From Aliikangiella coralliicola (GTDB lineage Bacteria > Pseudomonadota > Gammaproteobacteria > Enterobacterales > Kangiellaceae): 64,000 bases of DNA. Both the position numbers and the translations under genes were made by a program. Below are positions 10,296-13,831 of the stretch, in pieces (position 1 is the first letter of the stretch; the number at the start of each line of letters is the position of its first letter). The DNA lies in the NCBI RefSeq assembly GCF_007004725.1, contig NZ_ML660161.1, forward strand, positions 607,122-671,121. The letters are read 5' to 3'. Under the pieces are notes generated by a model. That model ran no database searches, was not told the origin of the DNA, and saw only the letters and a program-made list of their open reading frames with translations.

Positions 10296-11732
10296 TTGAA
10301 AAAAGCTACGCTAGTTTTTATTTGCTTGGTAGGGATTTGCAAGCCGGCAGTTGGTGTCGATAAAGCTAACGAAAACATTGCACGCTCTTTAATTGTTGCC
10401 AGGCTTGTGAGTCAAATAGATTGGCGTCAGGAGATATTTGCACAAAAGTCGTCTCGTGAATTTCGATTGTGTGTTTTTGATCATTATCCCTCCTATGGAC
10501 ATTTCAGTAAAAATCTCAATGGGTTATCAATCCGCAATGTTCCTATTGTTGTAAAAAATATGACAGATAGAAGCAATGCAGTTTCGTGTCATGTTGTTTA
10601 CATGAACAAGCCTTCAAATAGTGAGTTCTCATGGTTTATTAAAAATAACGCCGCCAATGGCGCGCTTTTGGTCGCAGAGGGGCGAGGTTATGCCGATAGA
10701 GGAGCACACTTGGGCCTTTATATCGGAAAAAGTAATGATTTCGACTTTGAGCTGAACCCGGATGCTTTTGTCCAGACTCAGCACAAACCTCCGCTGGAGA
10801 TTTTTTCACTTGGTAAAATTGTCAACAATTCTACAGAGCGCAAAACCCAGCTGATGCGTTCTTTGATCAATTATACCGAATGGCCTGGTGAAATTGACGG
10901 ACCGTTTGTTCTATGCTCATTCCAGAGCGATGTTTTCAGCGTTTATTCAGAGTTTCTTTTGAATGATAAGTCGATAAAAGGGAGGTCCGTTCAGACCAGT
11001 AAGATATCAAAGGTCGAAGACGCCAAAAAATGCCATGCACTTATTCTAGGAGAAGCTGATGAAGGGAAACTGCGCGAGCTGGTCTATCATCGGGACAAGT
11101 TAGGGGGATTGTTAATAGGTAACGCCCAATCGTTTGGTGAGAAGGGAACCCACTATAATTTAGTGCCATTGCAAAATGAGCAAAATCACCGCTTTGAAAT
11201 CAACTTATTTGCCTTTGAACAGACCGGGCATTCACCGCATTTTCAGTTATTTAATTCTGCAGTTGTTATTGAAAAAGATTTTCCTATTTTTACTCAGCTG
11301 CTTATCAATTTGATTCAGCAGACAAACTGGCCTGGCGAGGAACCTAAATTATCGACAGTTAATTTATGTATTTATCGTGGTGAAAAAGAATATGATGCCA
11401 TTCGGTACTTTTTACCTGTTTTCAAAACAAGAACTCAGAAGATTAAACTGACTTCGATTATCTCAGAAGATGGCATGAAGGCTTGCAACGCGGTACTTTT
11501 TGTCGATATTGATTCAGATGAAATTGCCAAATTATTTTCAAAATCTGAAGAAAAGTCTACTTTATTAATAACTAGTCGGCGAGATGCCGCAGAGTTTGGT
11601 ATTCACTACAATTTACTGGTTGCTGCCAAACGGTTTACTTTTGAATTATTTTCGGCCAATTTACGAGGAGCCGGTTTTGTCCCTCAAAAAACACTCATTG
11701 AGTCTGGTGTTGTGATTGGAGGAAATCTTTAA
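10296..11732 (+). CDS. Exported protein with three tandem YfiR-type (DUF4154) domains
   Basis: A 478-residue protein with a signal peptide (about residues 1-20) and three copies of the YfiR/DUF4154 fold, at roughly 28-175, 184-326 and 332-476. Each copy has a D-W or W-P-G start (W43, W196, W345), an L-C strand, a second cysteine in a C-x-V/A-x strand, and an F-E-hydrophobic segment near its end. The cysteine pairs C59/C98, C207/C246 and C358/C397 are each 39 apart; YfiR itself has a structural C71-C110 disulfide at the same spacing. YfiR is a periplasmic repressor of the diguanylate cyclase YfiN. The next gene starts inside the stop codon of this one (TAATG) and encodes a YfiN-like membrane enzyme, so a sensing or repressing role is inferred. 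No YfiB-like OmpA lipoprotein gene is next to it. Confidence 0.8.
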   Translation: MKKATLVFICLVGICKPAVGVDKANENIARSLIVARLVSQIDWRQEIFAQKSSREFRLCVFDHYPSYGHFSKNLNGLSIRNVPIVVKNMTDRSNAVSCHVVYMNKPSNSEFSWFIKNNAANGALLVAEGRGYADRGAHLGLYIGKSNDFDFELNPDAFVQTQHKPPLEIFSLGKIVNNSTERKTQLMRSLINYTEWPGEIDGPFVLCSFQSDVFSVYSEFLLNDKSIKGRSVQTSKISKVEDAKKCHALILGEADEGKLRELVYHRDKLGGLLIGNAQSFGEKGTHYNLVPLQNEQNHRFEINLFAFEQTGHSPHFQLFNSAVVIEKDFPIFTQLLINLIQQTNWPGEEPKLSTVNLCIYRGEKEYDAIRYFLPVFKTRTQKIKLTSIISEDGMKACNAVLFVDIDSDEIAKLFSKSEEKSTLLITSRRDAAEFGIHYNLLVAAKRFTFELFSANLRGAGFVPQKTLIESGVVIGGNL

Positions 11733-13831
11733 TGATTAATCTGGGACAATCTATTCGTTCGAAATTAATCGCGATTATCCTATTGATGTCCGCGGGCTCA
11801 CTGGCCGTCGGTATGCTGGGAATAGGCGTTAATTATTATCAAACCAGTCAAGAAGCATTAATTGCTGATGCAGAAACGCAAGCTGGGTTGCTTGCGACTA
11901 ACGCGGCGGTTCCTGTGAGCCTTGGCTCGAAAGAAGTATTGAAAAAAGTTCTTAACTCCGCTGTGCTTAGTGGCCAGTTTGGTGCTGCCATTTTTGATAA
12001 CACTGGCCATATCATGGCTGTTAGAGATGAAGACAACACTGAGTTTTATATTAGCGAAGCTGAATATAAAAGCGAAAAACATGCAATCTGGGGTGGTGAT
12101 CGTCTTTATGTTTGGTCACCAATACTGCAGCAACAAGATGGCGAATATTCAGGAATTGTCTACTTAAAAATTTCTACCGAGAAGTTTTATTCGAAAATTC
12201 AAGCCTTTACCTTGATGAGTATTGTGATTGTGATTGCATTACTTTTTCTGGTGTATTTGATTTCCCTGAGAATGCAACGAATGATCTCTGGTCCGTTGGT
12301 TGAACTGGAAGATATTAGCCGCAAGGTCAGTGGAAGCGGCAATTACGCGATACGAGTGCCATACTACGGCGAAGATGAAATTGGCTCTCTGGCCCGCTCA
12401 TTTAACCAAATGTTGGAAACAATTGAGTTAAACCAAAAAGAGCGGGATTCTGCTAATGAGGCGCTGCAGCTAAATAAAAAGAGATTAGAGCGAGCAGTAA
12501 AGGATTTGCAGTACCTTGCGAATTACGACTCGCTCACTCAGCTTCCCAATCGCGCTTTGTGTATGGATCGAATCAAATATGCTTTAAAAAGAGCCTCGCG
12601 AACCAGCACCATGGTTTCGATACTCTTTCTTGATTTAGACCACTTTAAAGATGTTAACGACTCCCTTGGGCACGCGGTGGGTGATCAGTTGTTAAAAGCT
12701 ACCAGCCAGCGGTTATTAGAAAAGATTCGAAGTGAAGATACTCTCGCGAGATTGGGTGGGGACGAGTTTGTCATTATTTTGAATGAAATTCGTGATACAG
12801 AAGATGTGATTACAATTGTTGAAAAAATTGTCAGTAGTTTTGAAGCGCCGTTCAGATTGTCTAACTATGAAGTTAACACAACTGTCAGCGTCGGTGTGTG
12901 TATGTTTCCAAATGACGGTGCGGATGTTGATTCGTTAATGAAAGCTGCCGACGCGGCAATGTATAAAGCGAAAGAAGTGGGACGTAATACCTACGAATTT
13001 TATGAGGCAGAACTTAATCAGCTGGCTATTCGTCGACATCAATTGGCTAACGAGCTACGCCAGGCAATAAAAAATGAAGAGTTAAGCCTGGTGTTTCAGC
13101 CACAACTTAACATTAAAGCAAATAAAGTCATCGGTGCTGAAGTGTTACTGCGCTGGCATCACCCGATATTAGGTAATATTTCTCCCGCTGAATTTGTGCC
13201 AATAGCTGAAAATACTGGCTTAATTAAGGAAATTGGGGCCTGGGTACTTGATAATGCTTGCGCGAAAATCGCGGAGTGCCAAAAAGAAGGCATTGATATT
13301 CGGTTAGCGGTTAACCTTTCTGCACTGCAATTTCGTCAAGTTGATTTGCCTGAATCAATCGCTAGTGTCATGCAATCTCATCGTATTCCGCCCAGATTAC
13401 TAGAAGTTGAAATTACCGAAAGTATGTTGATGCGCGATGTCAGCCAGGCAATTGATATTCTGGAGCGGCTGAAAGAAATGCAAATCCGAATTGCCATTGA
13501 TGACTTTGGCACCGGTTATTCCTCGTTGTCTTATTTAAGACGATTTCCATTAGATGCGTTAAAAATTGATCGATCGTTTATTGATGAGTTGGTTGTCGAT
13601 GCTGATGATACTGCAATTACTCTGGCAATTATTTCGATGGCGAAAAGCCTGAGATTAGAAGTAATTGCTGAAGGGGTTGAGACAGCCCAGCAAAAAGAGT
13701 TTTTGGCGCAAAATAATTGCGATGATATTCAGGGTTATCACTTTTCCAGGCCACTGAATTATCAAGAGTTTACTGATTTTTTAAAAAAACGTGTCGATAC
13801 AGACTGTAATGTTAATGAGTCAGTGAGCTAG
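11732..13831 (+). CDS. Membrane GGDEF-EAL protein with CHASE8-like sensor and HAMP
   Basis: A 699-residue c-di-GMP enzyme. Layout: membrane helix (about 13-33), periplasmic domain of about 120 residues resembling the CHASE8 sensor of YfiN, second helix (about 156-178), HAMP, then GGDEF and EAL domains. The GGDEF signature is intact at 342-346, with an RxxD product-inhibition site at 333-336, so cyclase activity is possible. The EAL domain reads E-V-L-L-R (Glu470) but keeps the other catalytic residues, including E-I-T-E-S, D-D-F-G-T-G and the K-I-D-R lysine, so phosphodiesterase activity is also possible. YfiN normally lacks an EAL domain. Overlaps the triple-YfiR gene by one base, strongly suggesting a signalling pair. 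Confidence 0.9.
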   Translation: MINLGQSIRSKLIAIILLMSAGSLAVGMLGIGVNYYQTSQEALIADAETQAGLLATNAAVPVSLGSKEVLKKVLNSAVLSGQFGAAIFDNTGHIMAVRDEDNTEFYISEAEYKSEKHAIWGGDRLYVWSPILQQQDGEYSGIVYLKISTEKFYSKIQAFTLMSIVIVIALLFLVYLISLRMQRMISGPLVELEDISRKVSGSGNYAIRVPYYGEDEIGSLARSFNQMLETIELNQKERDSANEALQLNKKRLERAVKDLQYLANYDSLTQLPNRALCMDRIKYALKRASRTSTMVSILFLDLDHFKDVNDSLGHAVGDQLLKATSQRLLEKIRSEDTLARLGGDEFVIILNEIRDTEDVITIVEKIVSSFEAPFRLSNYEVNTTVSVGVCMFPNDGADVDSLMKAADAAMYKAKEVGRNTYEFYEAELNQLAIRRHQLANELRQAIKNEELSLVFQPQLNIKANKVIGAEVLLRWHHPILGNISPAEFVPIAENTGLIKEIGAWVLDNACAKIAECQKEGIDIRLAVNLSALQFRQVDLPESIASVMQSHRIPPRLLEVEITESMLMRDVSQAIDILERLKEMQIRIAIDDFGTGYSSLSYLRRFPLDALKIDRSFIDELVVDADDTAITLAIISMAKSLRLEVIAEGVETAQQKEFLAQNNCDDIQGYHFSRPLNYQEFTDFLKKRVDTDCNVNESVS

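Follow-up and report, generated by a model that had tools for sequence, protein, structure and literature searches.

c-di-GMP is a biofilm signal, and YfiR normally consists of one domain per protein in other bacteria. When bound to YfiN, YfiR inhibits the cyclase (PMC3375315, PMC4655355, PMC5550408). The YfiR protein of Pseudomonas aeruginosa is a dimer, and its C71-C110 disulfide forms in oxidising conditions (PMC4655355). The pair equivalent to C71-C110 is critical for the function of HmsC (PMC5550408), and residue F162 of YfiR has been implicated in YfiN binding (PMC3375315). YfiR/YfiN pairs that lack YfiB and have a GGDEF-EAL output were described in 2012, and a Thauera sp. MZ1T system was reported to combine a hybrid kinase and two YfiR homologues (Malone 2012, PMC3375315). 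The canonical I-site is missing from most YfiN homologues (PMC10127611). We found no solved structure of a YfiR-YfiN complex.

In this study, we analyzed two overlapping genes in a stretch of 64,000 nucleotides from the marine bacterium Aliikangiella coralliicola (the window). A previous reading of the window, made from the sequence only, had given the coordinates of both genes and their one-base overlap correctly. The features, all on the plus strand, are as follows:

10296..11732, +, triple-YfiR gene yfiR3 (478 aa, TTG start, signal peptide at about residues 1-23)
10353..10811, +, YfiR domain 1 (aa 20-172, Cys 59/98; clusters with the single YfiR of Pleionea)
10812..11261, +, YfiR domain 2 (aa 173-322, Cys 207/246; with the YfiN-contact Phe)
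11262..11729, +, YfiR domain 3 (aa 323-478, Cys 358/397; most diverged, contact Phe present in the window species)
11732..13831, +, membrane GGDEF-EAL enzyme (699 aa; start codon and yfiR3 stop codon share one base, TAATG)
11834..12202, +, periplasmic sensor domain (about aa 35-157; GAAIF at 84-88 replaces AAVVF of YfiN)
12275..12427, +, HAMP domain (aa 182-232; Pfam)
12518..12988, +, GGDEF domain (aa 263-419; motif intact, I-site RSED at 333-336)
13049..13753, +, EAL domain (aa 440-674; motif EVLLR, catalytic residues present)

Similar to YfiR-YfiN of P. aeruginosa and HmsC-HmsD of Yersinia, the locus combines a putative periplasmic DUF4154 protein, with Cys pairs aligned to C71/C110, and a two-TM sensor-HAMP-GGDEF partner with an AAVVF-type motif. 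In contrast with YfiR-YfiN, it has three YfiR domains instead of one and no C145-C152 pair; the enzyme differs from YfiN by an additional EAL domain and by a canonical I-site, and unlike YfiBNR, the locus has no YfiB nearby. The GGDEF-EAL output and the lack of YfiB are shared with the YfiB-less YfiN/YfiR branch (PMC3375315). More than one YfiR has been described once before, in Thauera sp. MZ1T, as two homologues there and as three domains of one polypeptide here. In Pleionea, an orthologous enzyme occupies the same place between nqrA and tpiA, with one YfiR domain versus three in Aliikangiella. The sequence-only reading had regarded the locus as a rearranged YfiBNR switch, which is not supported because YfiB-less GGDEF-EAL pairs are known and Pleionea has the same enzyme with a single YfiR. 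Therefore, the only departure is the addition of two domains within Aliikangiella.

YfiR domains and their conserved residues

Pfam analysis of the yfiR3 protein revealed three PF13689 (DUF4154/YfiR) stretches (3.7e-48 overall). When each third was scored alone, domains 1, 2 and 3 obtained 61.2, 68.3 and 42.1 bits, respectively, all above the curated cut-off of 24.9 bits, which confirmed the three YfiR-type domains that had been proposed from the sequence. With the NCBI YfiR equivalog models, the protein reached 88.6 bits for NF053586 (cut-off 85, the score being summed over three domains) and 88.7 bits for NF053591 (cut-off 125). An AlphaFold2 model built on five orthologues had a pLDDT of 84 and a pTM of 0.81, and its top Foldseek matches were Pseudomonas YfiR crystal structures (E ~1e-6). 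Domain 1 could be superimposed on 4zhu_B by VIA-align (Z 18.1, rmsd 2.3 Å, 145 residues), and its order of strands and helices recurred in domains 2 and 3 of the predicted model. All three domains are predicted to have the YfiR fold. Virtually no linker separates consecutive domains, and their mutual identity within one protein is only 14-24%.

Lipoprotein anchoring of the yfiR3 protein was considered and dropped, as no lipobox was found by eye. The TTG start is preceded by GGGGTG, which is also the case in G005. In the longest-frame reading, TTG is the start of the yfiR3 orthologues in four species (the window species, G001, G005 and G006). Such a weak start may hold the regulator at a low level.

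In the window protein, the two Cys of each pair (59/98, 207/246 and 358/397) are 39 residues apart. The sequence-only reading was right about this exact spacing for the window protein, but it is not a general rule: among the five species only domain 2 keeps a constant distance of 39, while that of domain 1 varies from 39 to 41 and that of domain 3 from 38 to 46. The comparison with C71-C110 that it had drawn was borne out, as the pair of every domain aligns with C71/C110 of P. aeruginosa YfiR. None of the six Cys varies among five Aliikangiella species, the orthologues of the other four sharing 31-43% identity with the window protein; thus, the triple-YfiR pattern goes beyond chance. The second pair of P. 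aeruginosa YfiR (C145-C152, a structural disulfide) is absent from all three domains in the alignment, and also from the other non-Pseudomonas YfiRs therein, so that redox behaviour is not directly transferable from the P. aeruginosa protein.

All five species have the Phe equivalent to F162 in domain 2, and four have it in domain 1, where the fifth has Tyr. In domain 3 it was found in the window species only and is lost in the other four, which, judged from the alignment, argues against three equivalent binding sites. Across the five species, domain 2 is the most conserved, with a mean pairwise identity of 37.5%, followed by domain 1 (33%) and domain 3 (25%).

The GGDEF-EAL partner and its locus

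The enzyme has a TM-sensor-TM-HAMP-GGDEF-EAL architecture and is predicted to synthesise or degrade c-di-GMP. An NCBI model for a 'YfiR-like protein-associated' sensor matched the N-terminus of the enzyme in all 14 orthologues; the window enzyme scored 119 bits (1.8e-34), which is below the cut-off of 194. Its score for PRK09966 (YfiN/DgcN equivalog) was 221.7 bits, also below the cut-off (325). The GAAIF segment sits where YfiN carries the YfiR-binding AAVVF (residues 66-70), and F88 of the sensor is invariant in the Kangiellaceae orthologues that hold the region. With a YfiN-like sensor and HAMP domain, the enzyme agrees with the YfiN-type partner described by the sequence-only reading. The 'CHASE8-like' sensor of that reading was recovered only as a distant profile match: CHASE8 (PF17152) had no direct Pfam match in the window enzyme and gave weak matches in six of the 14 orthologues (best E 0.013), whereas a profile-profile comparison matched the sensor (96.5%, E 8e-10) to a set including a CHASE8 paralogue of the same genome.

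The metal and catalytic residues of the EAL domain (EVLLR, N528, E560, D590/D591, K611, E647 and Q667) are all present and are kept in orthologues, as expected from the earlier description of this domain as intact. By motif, the domain is a catalytically intact, predicted phosphodiesterase. A LapD-like degenerate receptor was dropped as a candidate because both GGDEF and EAL residues are intact. The full-length model of the enzyme was poor (pLDDT 54.7), and only its EAL match was used. Mean pairwise identity of the enzyme is 57% in the periplasmic part versus ~90% in GGDEF and EAL, and the enzymes of the other four triple species are 79-84% identical to the window enzyme.

Five of the seven Aliikangiella genomes share the gene order nqrA (divergent)-yfiR3-enzyme-tpiA-secG, and the triple-YfiR species include the cultured Aliikangiella marina. 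In the window, the pair is flanked by nqrA-F and tpiA, and no yfiB was present among the adjacent genes, as previously noted. The YfiR gene and the enzyme overlap or abut at all 14 junctions checked, and the one-base overlap supports the translational coupling proposed earlier; the two genes are linked in every genome that has both at this locus. In Pleionea, the same locus contains, in the same orientation, a single YfiR (186-189 aa) and the orthologous enzyme, which is 59-61% identical to that of the window. The enzyme occurs without YfiR at the locus in Aliikangiella G002 and G003 and in at least five sister-genus genomes. A search for YfiR remnants 5' of the enzyme, made with a profile of the domains, gave none in G002 and G003 or in the sister genus. 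As these YfiR-less relatives retain the enzyme and the sensor Phe, the sensor can work without YfiR. The slot where other Aliikangiella have YfiR is occupied in G003 by a sulfotransferase gene (L118:4245-4973).

Origin and distribution of the triple protein

In a phylogeny of the individual domains, domain 1 of all five species groups with the single YfiRs of Pleionea (support 92/87), and the second and third domains each form a group of their own (87/94 and 99/97, respectively). Since domain 1 clusters with the Pleionea single YfiR, the tree indicates that domains 2 and 3 were added behind an ancestral single YfiR; since each domain forms its own group across species, the tandem addition predated the divergence of the five species. 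The triple species cluster together in the enzyme tree, where their support is modest (77/85); G012, in which the enzyme is truncated at the contig start (L124) and the YfiR state is not judgeable, was entered there as 'none'.

PF13689 scans covered 296 genomes of the order, 369 of the class and 398 of the phylum, which are overlapping samples amounting to ~1,000 sampled Pseudomonadota genomes. No reading frame with repeated YfiR was found in them outside Aliikangiella, and the same scan picks up all three copies in each of the five triple proteins. The tandem triple YfiR in one polypeptide is new and, in this sample, genus-specific; the pairing of YfiR with GGDEF-EAL was already known.

YfiR also occurs in other arrangements. 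On other contigs of the same genome, it is fused to a histidine-kinase ATPase (L034:4994-6919), to a receiver- and Hpt-containing hybrid kinase (L035:3941-7234) and to a GGDEF domain (L033:6211-7848), and a second YfiR (196 aa) is flanked by a TonB-plug protein and a CHASE8-HAMP-GGDEF-EAL protein (L036:4537-9161). Elsewhere, a tandem pair of separate YfiR reading frames lies beside an MCP-type receptor (L042:4761-5745, G052:C118), and a YfiR gene is directly followed by another copy that is broken by two in-frame stops (G187:C10:15902-16605), which looks like a decayed tandem duplication.

Proposed function and alternative explanations

By analogy with the described systems, the yfiR3 protein is probably a soluble periplasmic, allosteric regulator of the YfiR type that contacts the enzyme sensor, with periplasmic redox as its likeliest input. 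The regulator and the membrane enzyme would be produced together. By homology, the regulator would touch the periplasmic sensor with the hydrophobic patch that surrounds the conserved Phe in domain 2, and probably also with that of domain 1. This contact would set a signal that is relayed via HAMP to the catalytic domains. Redox state, acting through the Cys pair in each domain, appears to be the most likely input because these pairs are placed like the YfiR/HmsC pair that forms only in oxidising conditions. From the known pairs we infer that the two proteins bind, that the regulator senses redox state and which way it acts on the enzyme, and either a net phosphodiesterase or a two-way enzyme output is possible.

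A different role for the repeated domains, conceivable although rather doubtful, involves no added sensing: domains 1 and 2 of one chain would stand in for a YfiR homodimer and bind the two sensors of one enzyme dimer, with domain 3 as a structural cap. This would fit the dimeric state of P. aeruginosa YfiR (PMC4655355), the near-absent linkers in a model that is confident overall, and the contact Phe (or Tyr), which is kept throughout the five species in domains 1 and 2 but is mostly missing from domain 3. However, the dimer contacts of P. aeruginosa YfiR (T76/D80/R98) are not conserved here, single YfiRs included, and its interface was set aside as an uninformative guide.

It seems unlikely that the domains are non-equivalent readers of different ligands or redox potentials, merged into one output. 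Their low identity within one protein (14-24%) and separate grouping across species, the Cys pair kept in all three and the resemblance of the YfiR fold to lobes of substrate-binding proteins in structure comparisons are consistent with such a role, but the divergence of domain 3 could be drift. We give similarly little weight to the fuller proposal that three diverged YfiR domains, arising by tandem addition inside one genus, integrate several signals and thereby decide in which direction a bifunctional c-di-GMP enzyme runs. Finally, it is very improbable that the triple protein has another partner and is linked to the enzyme for historical reasons: the YfiR-less loci of two Aliikangiella and at least five sister-genus genomes and the far faster divergence of YfiR3 (31-43% versus 79-84% identity for the enzyme) would fit, but every one of the five triple species, like the single-YfiR relatives, keeps the two genes coupled and adjacent.

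If the integration of several signals were true, a single periplasmic protein would be a multi-input allosteric regulator of a c-di-GMP enzyme. The triple YfiR also poses the question of YfiR:sensor stoichiometry. The series of YfiR-less, one-YfiR and three-YfiR arrangements on orthologous enzymes at one locus provides a natural comparison set, which makes the effect of extra regulator domains on c-di-GMP control directly measurable.
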